Shown: positions 19,561 to 25,276 of the stretch, in pieces
How the letters are laid out: the number at the start of each line of letters is the position of its first letter
How positions within the stretch are numbered: the first letter of the stretch is position 1
From: a virus
Length of the DNA stretch: 47,219 nt
IMG/VR virus record: IMGVR_UViG_3300025671_000111
Location: 1-47,219 of that record
Reading direction: 5' to 3' (one strand)
Translations under genes and position numbers: made by a program
The notes under the pieces: generated by a model
The model's input: only the letters and a program-made list of their open reading frames with translations
Told to the model about the DNA's origin: nothing
Databases searched by the model: none

Positions 19561-19634
19561 TGCCAGGAAAAGTGCATATAGTTTACCGGGCCCCGCCTTT
19601 GGCTTTGCCTCAGTTTCGATTTTTGCATAGTAAG

Positions 19635-19655
19635 TACGACAACGCTTCGATAATA
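19635..19655 (+). promoter_or_regulatory. Bipartite early element, copy 1
   Basis: TACGA, then 9 bases, then GATAATA: the same pair and spacing as six other copies to the right, though this copy lacks the upstream ACAAACTAAA. It is 29 bases before the ATG of the 35-residue membrane protein at 19684, so this copy would give a short leader. The surrounding 19561-19683 has no other clear feature. Confidence 0.6.
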
Positions 19656-19683
19656 TATATATAACAAAACAAAAATATTCTAC

Positions 19684-19791
19684 ATGCGTATTCTAAAATT
19701 ACTACTTCAAGAAATAATTTATACAATTCTTTTCGCTACAGTATTTACTCTTTACATAATGCTAACTTGTTCACTCAGTGAGTTGTTGTAA
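19684..19791 (+). CDS. 35-residue membrane peptide
   Basis: MRILKLLLQEIIYTILFA, then TVFTLYIMLTCSLSELL: one membrane span in a 35-residue protein. It follows copy 1 of the early element and is the first gene of the rightward block. Short membrane peptides are common early phage products that act on the host envelope. Assigned from its frame, position and hydrophobicity only. Confidence 0.45.
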   Translation: MRILKLLLQEIIYTILFATVFTLYIMLTCSLSELL

Positions 19792-19871
19792 AATAATTTA
19801 TGTCGTTCACTTGCGAGCGCGGCGGAGTACTACTCTACTAAAACTAATACATAAACAAACTTACTACTTTT

Positions 19872-19901
19872 ACAAACTAAATACGACAAGCAACAGATAA
19901 T
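19872..19901 (+). promoter_or_regulatory. Bipartite early element, copy 2
   Basis: ACAAACTAAATACGA (19872-19886), then 9 bases, then GATAAT at 19896. It lies 39 bases upstream of the ATG at 19935, so this copy predicts a short 5' leader. The stretch 19792-19871 before it holds a GC-rich patch (GCGAGCGCGGCGG) and no ORF. Confidence 0.65.
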
Positions 19902-19934
19902 AAATATAACTAATAACTTAAAAATATATATAAC

Positions 19935-20189
19935 ATGTCAAATTCAAATGCAGTGACTAACACTCTAACTAGCAAGCGTTTCGTTTTACGTCAATCACTT
20001 GTAGGCAAAGGCGCTACAATAACAGTAACATTCAAGAATGGTAACACAGTTACTTACAATCACGACAAAGCATTCACTCTTATGCAGTCAGCTTTAGAAG
20101 CAATGCCATGTTGGGCAAAGTATAAGTCGTACACTGCTAGTAACAATATACCAAAAGTGTTGCGTGAAACTGACGCAGTAGTGTCATAA
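19935..20189 (+). CDS. Small early protein
   Basis: Eighty-four residues (MSNSNAVTNTLTSKRFVLRQ). A beta-hairpin-like segment GATITVTFKNGNTVTYNHDK is followed by a helix (FTLMQSALEAMPCWAKYKSY). This pattern is seen in small phage proteins of unknown function. It is preceded by copy 2 of the early element and followed by the tRNA-like element. Confidence 0.6.
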   Translation: MSNSNAVTNTLTSKRFVLRQSLVGKGATITVTFKNGNTVTYNHDKAFTLMQSALEAMPCWAKYKSYTASNNIPKVLRETDAVVS

Positions 20190-20254
20190 CTACTCTTCAA
20201 CATATAGTCCAGTTAGTTTAGTGTTTACTGGTATATCAAATATGAACACTTACA

Positions 20255-20297
20255 TAGTAGTCATGGTGCCGAGTTGCGTTCGATTCGCAAGCTACTA
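20255..20297 (+). ncRNA. tRNA-like acceptor/T-arm minihelix 1
   Basis: TAGTAGT (20255-20261) pairs with GCTACTA (20291-20297), a 7-bp acceptor-like stem with a terminal T-G pair. Directly inside lies a 5-bp stem TTGCG/CGCAA with the loop TTCGATT, which is the tRNA T-arm loop consensus. Only 12 bases (20262-20273) replace the D and anticodon arms, so it cannot be a normal tRNA. It ends 16 bases before the ATG at 20314. An upstream stem AGTGTT/AACACT (20220-20250) may be part of the same RNA. It could be an RNase P or RNase Z processing mark. Confidence 0.55.
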
Positions 20298-20313
20298 CTA
20301 AACTAAAAATAAT

Positions 20314-20448
20314 ATGAAAGTAATTAACAAAATAACTAAGCGAGATGTAACTAAGTACTACTTAGCACTAATGATGAATCTTATCACTCGTGAAGAGTTT
20401 GAAGAGGTGGCAATGGTGAGACCTAATACTACAAACAAAATACGATAA
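20314..20448 (+). CDS. Small early protein (44 residues)
   Basis: MKVINKITKRDVTKYYLALM, then MNLITREEFEEVAMVRPN: a compact helical protein. The ATG is preceded by ACTAAACTAAAAATAAT, an AT-rich start. Its 3' end overlaps copy 3 of the early element. No family is recognised. Confidence 0.5.
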   Translation: MKVINKITKRDVTKYYLALMMNLITREEFEEVAMVRPNTTNKIR

Positions 20449-20460
20449 CTTATAGATAAT
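20431..20460 (+). promoter_or_regulatory. Bipartite early element, copy 3
   Basis: ACAAACAAAATACGA, then 9 bases, then GATAAT at 20455; six bases later comes the ATG at 20467. This spacing predicts transcription starting at or beside the start codon if GATAAT is a -10 box. One base differs from the usual ACAAACTAAATACG. Confidence 0.65.
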
Positions 20461-20466
20461 AATAAT

Positions 20467-20781
20467 ATGGCAATGATATTCAATAAAGAGCTACGAGCTC
20501 AAGTAAAACTACAGCGTAACGCTATACATCAATTACTCAAGCATCACTTACCAAATCATGATTTAACTCTGATTGGTGACAGTGAAATCAGTATCACTTA
20601 CAACATCAGTGACTACTCAGTGCGTAGCACAGCACTTGAATCAACTATGTTTGGCTATTGGCAGTTTGTCGAGTGGCAAGACGAGTGCGATGACTGTTAC
20701 AGCAATGCACTATCCTTAGGCGTTGATTACACTTCAAACGCTAATGACGTTGTCAATGCACTTATGAAACTACTAAAATAA
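20467..20781 (+). CDS. Small early protein (104 residues)
   Basis: MAMIFNKELRAQVKLQRNAI, then HQLLKHHLPNHDLTL; a middle region ISITYNISDYSV and an acidic, Cys-containing segment (EWQDECDDCYSNALSL). The end reads NALMKLLK. The mixed alpha/beta pattern gives no family. It is led by copy 3 of the early element with a six-base gap, so the mRNA may be leaderless. Confidence 0.6.
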   Translation: MAMIFNKELRAQVKLQRNAIHQLLKHHLPNHDLTLIGDSEISITYNISDYSVRSTALESTMFGYWQFVEWQDECDDCYSNALSLGVDYTSNANDVVNALMKLLK

Positions 20782-20787
20782 TATAAT

Positions 20788-20916
20788 ATGAGAAAATTCA
20801 ATCACTTTGTAATCGCAGAGATTACTATGAAAGCAGTACTTGCTTTGAACATTGGTACATTTGGTATCGCTATGATAATGCTACTTGTTAATGTAGCGTC
20901 AGATTTAACAAACTAA
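20788..20916 (+). CDS. 42-residue membrane peptide
   Basis: MRKFNHFVIAEITMKAVLAL, then NIGTFGIAMIMLLVNVASD: one membrane span in the C-terminal half. The last codons (TN, stop) lie inside copy 4 of the early element. A host-membrane role is likely from composition; nothing more can be said. Confidence 0.45.
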   Translation: MRKFNHFVIAEITMKAVLALNIGTFGIAMIMLLVNVASDLTN

Positions 20917-20937
20917 ATACGGAACACAATAGATAAT
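20908..20937 (+). promoter_or_regulatory. Bipartite early element, copy 4
   Basis: ACAAACTAAATACGG, 9 bases, GATAAT at 20932, then AATAAT and the ATG at 20944. The element includes the stop codon of the upstream gene. Confidence 0.7.
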
Positions 20938-20943
20938 AATAAT

Positions 20944-21117
20944 ATGAAAACAATTAAATTCTTAAAAAATAATAAAATACAGATAGGAATGGCAGTTTAT
21001 AAGCCATACTGTATTGGAGATTTACCGAATAATTTCGGTTGTATTAACTATGGTGAGTCAGATGGTGTTTCCCACTGGTTCGGTTATAAAGGTTTCACCT
21101 ATATATTAGAGAAATAA
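20944..21117 (+). CDS. Small early protein (57 residues)
   Basis: MKTIKFLKNNKIQIGMAVYK, then PYCIGDLPNNFGCINYGE and a final SHWFGYKGFTYILEK. It is aromatic and beta-like, starting six bases after GATAAT of copy 4. Its stop overlaps the next ATG (TAATG). Confidence 0.5.
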   Translation: MKTIKFLKNNKIQIGMAVYKPYCIGDLPNNFGCINYGESDGVSHWFGYKGFTYILEK

Positions 21118-21266
21118 TGAAAATAACAGTATTAAATTTTGAAAGAGCAGAGGTAGACACGTATGTGCTACCACCAGAAATGCCAGAAGTTCACGAAGCG
21201 CTTGAAGGCTTCTTAATCGGCAAAGGCTACAGCCTTGGCTCAATAGAGTGGATGTGTCATGAATAA
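21117..21266 (+). CDS. Small early protein (49 residues)
   Basis: MKITVLNFERAEVDTYVLPP, then EVHEALEGFLIGKGYSLGSI. It overlaps the previous stop by one base, so it is translationally coupled. The acidic beta-alpha pattern matches no family. Confidence 0.5.
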   Translation: MKITVLNFERAEVDTYVLPPEMPEVHEALEGFLIGKGYSLGSIEWMCHE

Positions 21267-21278
21267 TCAAGCAGTAAA

Positions 21279-21497
21279 ATGAAAGTAATACAACACTTAA
21301 AACTAAATCGCTTTGAGGCTTGGGCAGGTGCAAAAGAAACAAAGCGACTGATTATAGAAAACAACAAGTCTGAGCACTTTGAATATCTAATAGAAGATTT
21401 GTATCCTGATGGATTAACAGAAACTCAACTTAATGATATTCTATGGTTCGAAGACGAGTGGTTATGTGAAACACTACAAATAGAATTAGAAGAATGA
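21279..21497 (+). CDS. Small acidic early protein (72 residues)
   Basis: MKVIQHLKLNRFEAWAGAKE, then an acidic helical region (EYLIEDLYPDGLTETQLND, WFEDEWLCETLQIELEE). Strong acidity with helices recalls DNA-mimic or inhibitor proteins of phages, but this is only a composition argument. Its stop overlaps the next start by ATGA. Confidence 0.5.
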   Translation: MKVIQHLKLNRFEAWAGAKETKRLIIENNKSEHFEYLIEDLYPDGLTETQLNDILWFEDEWLCETLQIELEE

Positions 21498-21634
21498 AAA
21501 AAATAGTAGGATTAGAGCGACACGGTTACGCTCCAGAACTTAACAAAATATGGTATACTGACGGCACTTATGACAGTGTACCTCAATGTACAACGCTTGA
21601 AGAAGCAGAAAATTATGTAGCAAATGAAATATAG
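21494..21634 (+). CDS. Small early protein (46 residues)
   Basis: MKKIVGLERHGYAPELNKIW, then YTDGTYDSVPQCTTLEEAE. It starts inside the previous gene by an ATGA overlap and ends inside the next gene. It is supported by the chain of overlaps and similar codon use; the function is unknown. Confidence 0.45.
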   Translation: MKKIVGLERHGYAPELNKIWYTDGTYDSVPQCTTLEEAENYVANEI

Positions 21635-21824
21635 AATCAAAGACGTGCTAATCAAGCGCGATAGTATATCACCTGAAACAGCAGAGCACATAGTATCTGA
21701 AGCAAGAGACTATGTAATGCAAGGTCTAGCGTCAGGCGAGCTAACAGTATGGGATGTAGAAGACTACGTATCCTGTGAGTTCGGCCTAGAACCTGACTAT
21801 ATTGATGACTTAATTTTAATTTAA
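21624..21824 (+). CDS. Small acidic early protein (66 residues)
   Basis: MKYRIKDVLIKRDSISPETA, then EHIVSEARDYVMQGLASGE and an acidic end DYVSCEFGLEPDYIDDLILI. It overlaps the previous gene by 11 bases. The helical, acidic pattern matches no family. Confidence 0.5.
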   Translation: MKYRIKDVLIKRDSISPETAEHIVSEARDYVMQGLASGELTVWDVEDYVSCEFGLEPDYIDDLILI

Positions 21825-21828
21825 TACT

Positions 21829-22080
21829 ATGACAGAACAAGAAGTGGAAAACTATATCGTTGAAGAGTTAGACTCTCAACCAAGACACTGCTGTGCAACA
21901 TTAACAGACGCAGCAAAAGCAACCGCTTATGAGATCGAGTGTACACCATGGGAAGTACTACAATTAGTACTCGAAAACAAGCCAATCAGTGGCATGTTTA
22001 CTCATAGCTATGGTTTCCATACTCGATCTGGTAGGCATATTATTAACTTATTTCAAGAAAACTACTATGACAAGTTATGA
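21829..22080 (+). CDS. Small early protein (83 residues)
   Basis: MTEQEVENYIVEELDSQPRH, then CCATLTDAAKATAYEIECTP and PISGMFTHSYGFHTRSGRHI. The N-terminal half looks like a small helical, possibly HTH-like, domain. It overlaps the next gene by 14 bases. Confidence 0.5.
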   Translation: MTEQEVENYIVEELDSQPRHCCATLTDAAKATAYEIECTPWEVLQLVLENKPISGMFTHSYGFHTRSGRHIINLFQENYYDKL

Positions 22081-22408
22081 ACAAAGAGCGTATGATGCGC
22101 TAGCAATGAAGCTAACCGAAGCAGGTTACTCATATGAAAATACAAGCTATGGCAATGATGCAACTGCCTCTATATCAGTAACTTGTACACGTGTAATCAA
22201 AAGACCGACTTGGTACGACGACGAAGTTCAGCGGTTTGAGTTTCAAATCTACATACCTAACTGTGATTACTTCGACCCAGATAATGAGTACTTTAATACT
22301 TATGCGGTGACTGAAGAAGGTGGTAATATCACTCTTGACTTTAATCAAGCAGATGAAGTTGTAGAGCATATTCAAGACTGTACTCGCGATGTACATTTTA
22401 CAAACTAA
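22067..22408 (+). CDS. Small acidic early protein (113 residues)
   Basis: I start at the ATG at 22067 (MTSYEQRAYDALAMKLTEAG) because the longer frame would run through the previous gene. The body is beta-rich and acidic (VQRFEFQIYIPNCDYFDPDN, then GGNITLDFNQADEVVEHI). The final FTN codons and stop lie inside copy 5 of the early element. Confidence 0.5.
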   Translation: MTSYEQRAYDALAMKLTEAGYSYENTSYGNDATASISVTCTRVIKRPTWYDDEVQRFEFQIYIPNCDYFDPDNEYFNTYAVTEEGGNITLDFNQADEVVEHIQDCTRDVHFTN

Positions 22409-22429
22409 ATACGATTACTTTTCGATAAT
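22400..22429 (+). promoter_or_regulatory. Bipartite early element, copy 5
   Basis: ACAAACTAAATACGA, 9 bases, GATAAT at 22424, then six bases and the ATG at 22436. It overlaps the 3' end of the upstream gene. Confidence 0.7.
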
Positions 22430-22435
22430 ATATAT

Positions 22436-22645
22436 ATGAAATGCAAATGCAATAGTATAATCCCTGAAGGCCGTCTGCGCCTTGGTTTCAAAGTGTGTGT
22501 CAACTGTTCTACTGTTGAGCGTTATGGCTGTGCACCACTTATCAACCACAAGACAGGCAACTCAATACAAATCATGTCACGCAGTGATGCCGATCGTATC
22601 GCTAAGCTCACTAGGCGTCGTGGTTATGGTACAATGCTAAAATAA
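22436..22645 (+). CDS. Small zinc-ribbon-like protein (69 residues)
   Basis: MKCKCNSIIPEGRLRLGF then KVCVNCSTVERYGCAPLINH: CxC and CxxC pairs spaced like a small zinc ribbon, followed by a basic C-terminus (DADRIAKLTRRRGYGTMLK). The 'R...G...C..CS' ribbon recalls DksA-type proteins and other phage transcription-modulating ribbons. It is led by copy 5 with the six-base gap. Confidence 0.55.
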   Translation: MKCKCNSIIPEGRLRLGFKVCVNCSTVERYGCAPLINHKTGNSIQIMSRSDADRIAKLTRRRGYGTMLK

Positions 22646-22652
22646 TATAATC

Positions 22653-23051
22653 ATGAATAAAGAACAATTACAGGCAAAAGTGGAAGCACTACAAGCCAAC
22701 AGAGATACTAAAGACTCTGAATTAAGACAAGCTCAAAGCGAGCTAAACACAGCAGTAAACGAACTAGCTAATGCAGGTAGACCTAAAATCCAGTCGAAAG
22801 TGGCAGATGATTTAGTAGACGCACTACAAGATATATTCACTGAAATAGTACACAACGTCGACACTCACGATCTAGATGTAGAATTTGGTATGGACTACGG
22901 TAATACGGTAGTAATAGAGAATATTGATTTTAGTAATATAGGAATATCTGAGTCGGATATCTATAACGTGTTACAAGATATGTTCAACATAGTTGAAGAA
23001 GATTTTGTCAACGAAGACGACTCAGGTAAGATTGATGGCAAATTTGTCTGA
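22653..23051 (+). CDS. Coiled-coil acidic early protein (132 residues)
   Basis: The N-terminal 45 residues are a coiled coil (MNKEQLQAKVEALQANRDTK, then LRQAQSELNTAVNELAN). The C-terminal part is acidic (ALQDIFTEIVHNVDTHDLDV, EDFVNEDDSGKIDGKFV). The region between this gene and the next holds the structured RNA. The function is unknown. Confidence 0.55.
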   Translation: MNKEQLQAKVEALQANRDTKDSELRQAQSELNTAVNELANAGRPKIQSKVADDLVDALQDIFTEIVHNVDTHDLDVEFGMDYGNTVVIENIDFSNIGISESDIYNVLQDMFNIVEEDFVNEDDSGKIDGKFV

Positions 23052-23059
23052 CAATAGCT

Positions 23060-23365
23060 AGTTAAATGTGCAAGACTGGTGGAAGCACCGTAATGGTCCG
23101 CCGCGAGAAGCTTAAGACATTGCTCGCAGATTAGTCATCATATTGCACATATAAGCACGACGGTGCAAGGCATACATAGAGCTGGGGAGGCGATATAACT
23201 TCGTTCAGAAGCGAGCCCAAAGTGAACAGCTTATGTATGTAACGGGTGTGTTGCTATACACGCTACGCGTTGATCGAGGTAACCTGACGAGGTTACATGA
23301 CATGTCTCGGTCTTCGCTTTATATAAGAGTAACGGTTAGTGCAGGTTCGATTCCTGCGCTCTTAC
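23060..23365 (+). ncRNA. Novel structured RNA with tRNA-like 3' end
   Basis: About 300 bases without an ORF but with many paired segments. A: ATGTGCAA/TTGCACAT (23066-23073 / 23143-23150), enclosing GACT/AGTC, GGTG-gaag-CACC (23078-23089) and GCGAG/CTCGC (23103-23107 / 23123-23127). Then GCAC-gacg-GTGC (23155-23166). B: CATACATA.AGCT/AGCTTATGTATG (23171-23183 / 23228-23239), containing CTTC/GAAG whose loop GTTCA can pair with TGAAC (23223-23227), a pseudoknot. C: GTGT/ACAC (23246-23261). D: GATCGAG/CTCGGTC (23272-23278 / 23306-23312) around GTAACC/GGTTAC. At the 3' end, TAAGAGT/GCTCTTA (23324-23330 / 23358-23364) encloses the T-arm GCAGG-TTCGATT-CCTGC, with only 10 bases in place of the D and anticodon arms. 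Confidence 0.7.
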
Positions 23366-23393
23366 AAACTAAATACGAATACTAACGGATAAT
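23364..23393 (+). promoter_or_regulatory. Bipartite early element, copy 6
   Basis: ACAAACTAAATACGA, 9 bases, GATAAT at 23388, then six bases and the ATG at 23400. The element begins exactly at the 3' end of the tRNA-like stem, so RNA end and promoter abut. Confidence 0.7.
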
Positions 23394-23399
23394 ATCAAT

Positions 23400-23636
23400 A
23401 TGAGACGAACATTATACCAAAGACTAAACAAAGACATACGTGATACTTTGCTTGCAAACCAAGATGATTACACATTTACGGTTACTAGCACTATTAAAGT
23501 TCTCGATTCTACATCATTCTGGAGCGAGCTTAAAATAAGCGAAATCAATAACCTTATAATCTACGGCGGAGTCGATTTTGGTAGTATCAACGGTAGCACA
23601 TTAATGACAGGAGAAAATATTATTGAAGATGAATAA
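23400..23636 (+). CDS. Small early protein (78 residues)
   Basis: MRRTLYQRLNKDIRDTLLAN, then DDYTFTVTSTIKVLDSTSFW and a final GSTLMTGENIIEDE. A helix followed by beta strands. It overlaps the next gene by 8 bases and is led by copy 6 of the early element. Confidence 0.5.
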   Translation: MRRTLYQRLNKDIRDTLLANQDDYTFTVTSTIKVLDSTSFWSELKISEINNLIIYGGVDFGSINGSTLMTGENIIEDE

Positions 23637-23904
23637 CAAACAACAAGCAGAAGAAATGTTACCGAGTTGGTTCGACGGTGACGTATACGAACTAGGTGAC
23701 GAAGTGCGCAACCCATTAACTGGTGAAACAGCATTATTAGATGCTGCTGAGCTGAGTATGTATGATTTAATTAAAGGTGCTGAAATAGCAATGGTTATGA
23801 ACATACCAGTGTTCGATCTAGATGACTGCATTGATGTCATTACTAGAGGCAAGGACTGGTTTCTAATCAAGAATCCTAACGCATACATGATACTACTAGA
23901 CTAA
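23629..23904 (+). CDS. Small early protein (91 residues)
   Basis: I start at the ATG at 23629 (MNNKQQAEEMLPSWFDGDVY) because the two-codon-longer frame begins with TTG. The protein is acidic with repeated short strands (DEVRNPLTGETALLDAAELS, VFDLDDCIDVITRGKDWFLI). It is coupled to its neighbours by short overlaps. The family is unknown. Confidence 0.5.
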   Translation: MNNKQQAEEMLPSWFDGDVYELGDEVRNPLTGETALLDAAELSMYDLIKGAEIAMVMNIPVFDLDDCIDVITRGKDWFLIKNPNAYMILLD

Positions 23905-23984
23905 TGGAATACTTATACGCGGGCTTACTAGGTTACATAATACTAGAACAAATAATAGAATCAAATAGAAAATTTAAAGAATAA
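23904..23984 (+). CDS. 26-residue hydrophobic peptide
   Basis: MEYLYAGLLGYIILEQIIES, then NRKFKE: one short hydrophobic helix with a basic tail. The start and stop each overlap a neighbour by one base, which supports real translation despite the length. Confidence 0.4.
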   Translation: MEYLYAGLLGYIILEQIIESNRKFKE

Positions 23985-24403
23985 TGGCAACAAGAGCAAC
24001 AATAAGGTTCGCAACGCGCGAAGAGGGTGTACCTTTTGACAAACACCCAGATCGATGGCACGCACAGTTCTATAATCACTGGGATGGTTATCCTGAAGGA
24101 TTAGGCGTAGAGATCGCCGAATCATTTACTAAGTATCGTAAAGTCGAAGGCTGGGAAGTCGAAGCTCTTGATATAGTACACTGCGACATAGAGTATATGT
24201 ACTATGTGTGGCAGTGTCATGGCAAATCCGAGCCATGGATCAGTGTATTCAAAGTAGCGTCGTGGGAAGAAGAGCGATGTGTATTTGTAGGTACACCAGA
24301 CATGTTACTGAAGAAGTACGCACCTGAACAGGTCGAGACTGAAGAGTTTTTATGCGACAACTGCGACTGTAGCGAAACAGAGCGAGACACATGTACGAAC
24401 TAA
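23984..24403 (+). CDS. Conserved phage protein of unknown function (139 residues)
   Basis: The N-terminal part MATRATIRFATREEGVPFDK, then HAQFYNHWDGYPEGLGVEI matches a pattern ('ATRATIR....vY.HWDGYP.g.G') that I have seen in hypothetical proteins of many phages. The C-terminus has a Cys cluster (CDNCDCSETERDTCTN) that might bind metal. Its last codons lie in copy 7 of the early element. Confidence 0.6.
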   Translation: MATRATIRFATREEGVPFDKHPDRWHAQFYNHWDGYPEGLGVEIAESFTKYRKVEGWEVEALDIVHCDIEYMYYVWQCHGKSEPWISVFKVASWEEERCVFVGTPDMLLKKYAPEQVETEEFLCDNCDCSETERDTCTN

Positions 24404-24424
24404 ATACGAATACTAACAGATAAT
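24395..24424 (+). promoter_or_regulatory. Bipartite early element, copy 7
   Basis: ACGAACTAAATACGA, 9 bases, GATAAT at 24419, then AATAAT and the ATG of the ligase at 24431. Its spacer (ATACTAACA) is nearly identical to that of copy 6 (ATACTAACG). Confidence 0.7.
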
Positions 24425-24430
24425 AATAAT

Positions 24431-25276
24431 ATGATAAGACATAAACCAATGCTGGCATATCCTGTCAGCGATAAACCAATTGACTACAGCGAAGGCGTAT
24501 TCTTACAGCCTAAGCTTGACGGCGTCCGCTGTGTCATACAGTGTGACAACGGCAATGTAACCGCGTGGTCACGTACAGGTAAGCAATGGCTTAACATCGA
24601 TCACATCTTGTTTAACCTTGAACCTTTCTTCAAGTTTAACCCGCAAGTTGTACTCGATGGCGAGCTATACAACCACGACTTGAAAGATGACTTCGAAAAG
24701 ATCATCTCTTGCGTGCGTAAGACTAAACCAACAGATGAGTACAGGCTTGAATCAGCTAGACTTGTGCAGTTCCACTGCTACGATCTAATCGGTAAAGGCA
24801 TGCACTTACCGTTTGCTAAGCGTAGCGAGTGGCTGCAATACAACCTTATGCAAAACCGCTGCATCAAACGTGTACCAACGTTAGATGTGTTTAACGAAGA
24901 TCAAGCTAAAATTATACACCATGGAAATCTTGCTCAAGGTTACGAAGGCTCAATACTGCGTCTTAATACTGAGTATCACGAAAAGCGTTCACACAGCCTA
25001 CGTAAGTTCAAAGACTTCCACGACACTGAGGCAGAAATTATTGGCTGGGTTGAAGGTAAAGGCAAACGTGTAGGTACGATCGGTAAGTTCCTAGCTCGTG
25101 ATGCTGATGGCGTAGAGTTTGGTATGCCTGTCATGGATAAGTTCAAGTACTTACAAGACAACTTTAAAGCTATGCAAGGCTGGGTTGGCAAGACAGCTAC
25201 GTTCACATACTTCGAGCGTACCAAAGCTGGTAGCTACCGTCACCCACTATTTAAATGTATACGCGACTACGAATGA
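24431..25276 (+). CDS. ATP-dependent DNA ligase
   Basis: A 281-residue minimal ligase. Motif I KLDGVR sits at about 28-33 with the adenylated Lys; then AWSRTGKQW, VLDGELYNH (motif III), YEGSILRL (motif IV) and SLRKFKDFHDTEAEIIG (motif V), and a short OB-like end (WVGKTATFTYFERTKAGSYR). The length fits small phage and bacterial Lig-E/T7-type ligases. It seals nicks in replication and recombination. It is led by copy 7 of the early element, which makes it one of the earliest DNA-metabolism genes. Confidence 0.9.
   Translation: MIRHKPMLAYPVSDKPIDYSEGVFLQPKLDGVRCVIQCDNGNVTAWSRTGKQWLNIDHILFNLEPFFKFNPQVVLDGELYNHDLKDDFEKIISCVRKTKPTDEYRLESARLVQFHCYDLIGKGMHLPFAKRSEWLQYNLMQNRCIKRVPTLDVFNEDQAKIIHHGNLAQGYEGSILRLNTEYHEKRSHSLRKFKDFHDTEAEIIGWVEGKGKRVGTIGKFLARDADGVEFGMPVMDKFKYLQDNFKAMQGWVGKTATFTYFERTKAGSYRHPLFKCIRDYE

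Follow-up and report, generated by a model that had tools for sequence, protein, structure and literature searches.

Positions 23,052-23,364 of the window (the whole 47,219-nucleotide stretch analysed here, IMG/VR virus record IMGVR_UViG_3300025671_000111; all window features below lie on its plus strand) are predicted to form a locus for structured non-coding RNA in which two units adjoin directly. Unit 1 (23,052-23,323), recognised from a core model match, its fold and a shared leader, has the character of a conserved multi-helix RNA with exchangeable peripheral modules, whilst unit 2 (23,324-23,364) is a minimal tRNA-elbow element, recognised from its sequence, from homologues with a longer insert and from short-linker counterparts. 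The spacer between the two is zero, 23,323 directly adjoining 23,324. Comparison with related phages, gathered via the DNA ligase gene that lies 1 kb downstream of the locus (73 loci, given L numbers here), marks the locus as a real, conserved and unclassified RNA. The first-pass annotation had described one RNA of about 300 bases starting at 23,060; the structured RNA stands, but comparison divides it into two abutting units rather than a single indivisible one, and its 5' boundary lies nearer 23,052, just after the upstream stop codon. The suggestion that this is a new phage RNA with a tRNA-mimicking end is likewise borne out by homologues, covariation, synteny, strand bias and the lack of an Rfam match, except that the tail is a separable neighbour.

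The record carries genes for GroEL, terminase, portal, ligase, primase/helicase and its own sigma factor. Its host is likely to belong to the Bacteroidota, since its terminase shares 65% identity with that of an uncultured Manatee Spring phage, 46% with those of Flavobacterium elemo phages and approximately 37-38% with those of Cellulophaga phages. The RNA locus begins just 3' of the stop codon of an ORF at 22,653-23,051. At its other end it meets a promoter-like repeat (ACAAACTAAATACGA...GATAATATCAATATG, 23,364-23,402; seven copies in the window) that runs into the next ORF (23,400); the two had been thought to meet exactly, but repeat copy D1 (23,360-23,414) overlaps the 3' end of the locus by a few bases. 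As a 55-base promoter- or leader-like sequence (ACAAACTAAATACGA...GATAATAATAATATG), the seven copies are spread over window positions 19,621-24,445, ahead of early genes. No terminator-like site was found within 22,900-23,700. A small cysteine-rich, zinc-ribbon-like ORF at 22,436-22,645, for which there was no Pfam match, has relatives just 5' of the RNA arrays in many related phages and is a possible RNA partner.

The region folds better than its shuffles (z -2.9; 0/100 as good), as does unit 1 alone (z -2.2; 3/200 as good), and the multiple stems and named landmarks of the ORF-free stretch could all be located in the sequence. ARAGORN found no tRNA and no tmRNA in the region. Rfam returned no family at gathering scores, and at E ≤10 its sole match was one snoRNA at E 4.4. 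Hence the earlier statements that this is not a tRNA and lacks tmRNA 5' landmarks and an RNase P core withstood both programs, with no significant tRNA, tmRNA or intron match on the region. Neither program recovered a tRNA cloverleaf with an anticodon arm (RF00005), ten bases separating acceptor and T-arm. The tmRNA model (RF00023) had no match at E ≤10 in the region, nor in the near-identical fuller record L008, and the tag reading frame and pseudoknot ring of tmRNA are absent from the window element. RNase P RNA, group I and II introns, GOLLD, ROOL and other Rfam families were ruled out, none of their models matching. When the region was compared at the DNA level with annotated phage records, there was no match. 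Viral contigs scanned for patterns of the core and of the 3' end yielded near-identical copies, the known homologues and three unrelated matches (L095, L096, L098).

The 5' limit of unit 1 is set by a leader, TGACAATAGCTAGTTAA, common to the window, L005, L006, L071 and L024. It is followed by a 5' module (23,066-23,150), defined by fold and reuse as a three-way junction closed by ATGTGCAA/TTGCACAT, which is absent or different in L005, L006 and L071; the inner part of its hairpin GGTGGAAGCACCGTAATGGTCCGCC (23,078-23,102) is found again in L059 and L063. The conserved core is present in six distinct phages (the window phage, L005, L006, L071, L007 and L023) and runs in the order GCAC-GACG-GTGC, AAGG, a helix CGTAC...GTACG, TAACGGG, a variable helix, a helix starting with GCRTTGA, and approximately TTTAYA. 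Between these pieces lie modules that vary in length and sequence by phage, one being common to L007 and L023. Helix P1 (23,155-23,166; GCAC-GACG-GTGC) has two of its four pairs changed on both sides, and P2 (23,171-23,175 with 23,235-23,239) has three covarying pairs out of five. P3 (23,245-23,264) was placed by the covariation analysis. P4 (23,267-23,275 with 23,309-23,317), which encloses an inner hairpin GTAACC-TGACGA-GGTTAC, shows both-side changes at four of nine pairs, two of the nine being disrupted in the window by a TT/TT internal loop. The module that caps P2 is specific to the window and may contain a pseudoknot (GTTCA 23,203-23,207 with TGAAC 23,223-23,227), suggested by sequence complementarity only, as the module is without homologue in any relative.

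For the covariation analysis the modules were cut by hand from the six cores, leaving a gap-free alignment. The four helices comprise 21 pairs, in which 96.8% of cells pair, and ten of these pairs (15 cells) carry changes on both sides. These both-side counts were matched by 0/500 shuffles, and a shift of the partner by 1-3 bases leaves at most one such pair; by this count all four helices covary across the six homologous cores. Further pair types in the core showed no excess over shuffles (140/500). Trained on the other five phages, a covariance model has its sole window match at 23,155-23,323 (E 1.9e-7, a rough E-value), stopping one base 5' of the tRNA-like element. The fast exchange of modules in unit 1 fits an interaction with changing host factors.

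Unit 2 consists of acceptor strands at 23,324-23,330 and 23,358-23,364, a T-arm GCAGG-TTCGATT-CCTGC (23,341-23,357) and a ten-base linker AACGGTTAGT (23,331-23,340). These ten bases had been noted as all that stands in the place of the D and anticodon arms; they are not filler, as they hold the two guanines of a D-loop-like GG at 23,334-23,335. The acceptor stem, TTCRANN T-loop and D-loop GG of RF00005 are thus all present, the acceptor pairing by comparison, in a 41-base element that lacks an anticodon-equivalent stem, G3:U70 and a P2 helix. In the window copy the acceptor stem is A/U-rich, is missing from the minimum-energy fold and was assigned by comparison; such a weak acceptor would need elbow contact. 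The 3' end of unit 2 lies 35 bases 5' of the next start codon, and its exact 3' half occurs, among viral contigs, only in the window phage. Elbow parts and an acceptor stem placed directly 3' of a larger structured RNA constitute an anatomy of the mascRNA/menRNA type.

Clear homologues of the 3' end occur in L005, L006 and L071, where the acceptor strand and AACGGTT are identical to those of the window and 60-67 bases, as against ten, separate acceptor from T-arm; short-linker counterparts of unit 2 are found in at least nine other phages. Downstream of the core, L007 has an alanine-type tmRNA tRNA-like domain and L023 a genuine tRNA-Arg. Because the same core precedes such different tRNA-shaped RNAs, units 1 and 2 are separable, unit 1 adjoining any RNA of tRNA shape that happens to come after it, and the slot downstream of the core seems to want a tRNA shape rather than one sequence. 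Exchange extends to smaller pieces: the 22-base module GGTGAGGGATCGTTATGAACTC occurs in four different scaffolds (L032:3561, L037:3177, L038:3852, L059:4036), TTTCCCACTTAGCAGAAAGGATGTTTGA occurs twice in L053, and GGAAGCACCGTAATGGTCC is shared by the window, L059 and L063. Short sequences recurring across scaffolds in this manner point to recombination of modules. A further core class (GAGGTG...CACCTCGTTTT) is found, apparently at the same locus, in L024:4082-4370, L013, L014, L020, L021 and L027; in L024 it stands between the 5' leader that the window RNA also has and a true tRNA-Asp, a cassette-like replacement.

Comparative scans show that the window tail is one of many tRNA-like elements without an anticodon among the related phages. 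In counts that include true tRNAs recognised by ARAGORN, most of the remaining matches being uncalled by that program, a scan for a paired T-arm plus paired acceptor gave 104 matches in the loci against approximately four in shuffled sequence (near-identical loci counted), and a later scan, run on loci pruned of near-identical ones, with six acceptor pairs allowed and a linker GG required, gave 94 matches on the gene strand against one on the other, in 52 loci. The median distance from the end of an element to the next start codon is 22 bases, and 64% of ends fall within 45 bases of it, compared with 29% for random positions; others end just before another tRNA-like element, and in several relatives two stand in succession. 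They fall into an alanine type (a), an AACTAG...CTAGTT type (b), the window type (c) and two short types (d, e) with 9-12 linking bases that include GG. The window itself holds a second element of the same kind at 20,209-20,297, a possible H-type pseudoknot (20,209-20,249) followed by an elbow element (20,255-20,297), with homologues in L005 and L006. It follows an ORF and ends 17 bases before the next start codon. Pseudoknot stems 5' of the elbow element (20,255-20,297) change in step in L005, L012 and L035 as read by eye, the base pairings within the short elements and within the upstream pseudoknots having been compared in this way because MAFFT alignments of both were poor.

Many relatives also carry RNAs of tmRNA type. 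The Rfam tmRNA model matches L029:3980-4060 from one end to the other, scoring 65.9 bits against a cut-off of 47, with approximately 300 positions missing, and 27 of 47 IMG/VR relatives, taken as whole records, have end-to-end tmRNA matches of 72-141 bases, nine of them above the cut-off. Copies include L029:3980-4060, L007:2886-2969, L050:3415-3486, L053:3562-3649 and approximately 25 more. On the evidence of the model these are tmRNA tRNA-like domains without the messenger part: a tag reading frame and pseudoknot ring were looked for and not found, the missing stretch of some 300 model positions being common to them. The isolate Calle_1 has a full-length tmRNA. G3:U70 and A73 are present in all 29 distinct copies, whereas pair 4-69 is C-G in 13, G-C in nine and A-U in seven and the T-stem covaries; because the copy search demanded a GGGnGTG/CACnTCC frame, the other acceptor pairs are invariant in part by construction, and the counts do not set G3:U70 apart from them. 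The retention of a wobble pair at the position that specifies alanine would nevertheless fit charging by AlaRS. The P2 helix of these RNAs bears differing inserts as its cap in most phages. No alanine-type copy was found in the window phage or its near-identical fuller record, and a scan of the genome collection for the alanine-type 5' signature gave three matches, about the chance level for an 18-mer there.

How might the two units work together? The likeliest reading, in our view about as probable as not, is that unit 1 is a phage non-coding RNA and unit 2 a tRNA-mimic processing tag. An early transcript would run through the locus; host RNase P would cut at 23,323/23,324 to form the 3' end of unit 1, RNase Z would cut near 23,364 to form the 5' end of the next mRNA, and both cuts would release the upstream RNA and the next mRNA, by the same logic as tRNA punctuation in organelles and MALAT1/mascRNA. 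A processing tag is proposed because the elements lie near start codons, no terminator-like site intervenes and the elbow parts read by RNase P and RNase Z are retained; in mascRNA and menRNA, two D-loop guanines together with the T-loop build the elbow that both enzymes read (PMC11693755). Core covariation, leave-one-out recovery, slot exchange and the 94:1 strand bias add support alongside start-codon proximity. Against it, the window acceptor is weak and lies outside the minimum-energy fold, the promoter-like repeat directly 3' of the element could start the next mRNA without cleavage, and processing alone leaves the alanine identity of the tmRNA-type relatives unexplained. It is tempting to speculate more broadly, and quite tentatively, that this lineage employs the tRNA elbow as a universal tail or frame for interchangeable modules, inserted in the D-loop, substituted for the anticodon arm or added upstream as a core, to yield fast-evolving RNA effectors, some of them alanine-chargeable, directed against host translation or defence.

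The main rival to a processing tag holds that the tRNA-like elements tie up host proteins that bind elbow or acceptor (SmpB, EF-Tu, AlaRS, the CCA enzyme or tRNA-attacking defence enzymes), as tmRNA consisting of the tRNA-like domain only inhibits trans-translation. A molecule of that kind inhibits tmRNA, perhaps by titrating SmpB (PMC4131195), and the messenger-less domains in 27 of the 47 related records, the G3:U70 and A73 of every one of the 29 copies and the presence of such an RNA in the unit 2 slot of L007 would all suit it. However, the window element has no G3:U70, P2 helix or tmRNA model match, neither the window phage nor its fuller near-identical record has an alanine-type copy, and binding of host proteins does not need abutment to unit 1 or closeness to a start codon; on balance we regard such a role as somewhat unlikely here.

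In some plant RNA viruses the 3' end of the genome is formed by a pseudoknot plus a tRNA-like structure. The same succession is predicted at window positions 20,209-20,297, although the plant structures end RNA virus genomes and those of the window would belong to transcripts of a DNA phage. Since the locus begins right after the stop codon of the ORF at 22,653-23,051, and the second element also follows an ORF with its pseudoknot before the tRNA-like end, both might be 3' untranslated elements shielding the mRNA of the preceding gene from exonucleases in the manner of those plant virus ends. We find this improbable: upstream genes vary among phages, the core needs no fixed preceding gene, and several relatives have two tRNA-like elements in a row. 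Very improbable, finally, is a remnant, either a tRNA or tmRNA gene in decay or an attachment site copying the 3' half of a host tRNA. The homologues in L005, L006 and L071 are longer, so the window element has probably lost an insert, but many phages have elements in which acceptor and T stems are both paired, often joined by a short linker containing GG, the window element has its own 5' acceptor strand, two such elements exist in one genome, and the exact 3' half is confined to the window phage among viral contigs. An attachment site was rejected on account of that 5' acceptor strand, the presence of two copies in one genome and the variable sequence.

Precedents exist for the mimic principle and for tmRNA reduced to its tRNA-like domain; none for the core RNA or an elbow-only tail was found in Rfam or the literature searched. 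In MALAT1/mascRNA and MEN-beta/menRNA a larger RNA is likewise followed by a small tRNA mimic with acceptor, T-arm and two D-loop guanines (PMC11693755). Those systems are eukaryotic, whereas the window element is of phage origin, has 41 bases and no anticodon-equivalent stem, shares no sequence kinship with them, and its cleavage is predicted. MALAT1 and NEAT1 have been described as the only long non-coding RNAs to mature via the tRNA-processing machinery (PMC12941219). If a processing tag is indeed what unit 2 provides, a bacterial virus with a tag of 41 bases would supply a natural mimic of the elbow at very small size, with which the requirements of RNase P and RNase Z could be tested simply. 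The one known phage case of a tRNA-like-domain-only tmRNA is that of Mycobacterium phage DS6A (PMC4131195; PMC11915505). The relatives of the window phage have 27 records of such phage-encoded, messenger-less domains, with variable P2 inserts, and would turn a one-phage curiosity into a widespread group in which interference with trans-translation is directly testable; the window element differs from the DS6A type in being unmatched by the tmRNA model and without G3:U70 or P2. GOLLD and ROOL, which frequently lie close to tRNA islands, are likewise large structured phage RNAs whose function is unknown (PMC12286853), but have 500-800 bases, compared with approximately 270 for the window RNA, which has no Rfam match and an anticodon-less mimic tail. 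Exchange of modules among scaffolds would parallel, in nature, the tRNA scaffold used in the laboratory.

Another RNA class, with a near-invariant block of 22-25 bases (GCTAGACGAGTAGCTTAATTAGG), is present in L029:3670-4000, L032, L035, L036, L039, L042, L057, L061 and L063; its members have an insert-accepting D-arm-like hairpin and an AACTAG...CTAGTT element downstream. Unannotated tRNA-like elements with unusual or missing anticodon arms also occur in isolated Cellulophaga phage and Manatee Spring phage sequences, at approximately 37,300-37,353 of L088 (Calle_1), 4,296-4,434 of L089 and 523-629 of L082 (MW202828). Within Calle_1, candidates of this general kind lie near 37.3 and 49.3 kb. 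One tRNA-like element of the isolated Cellulophaga phage lies just before its RtcB gene.
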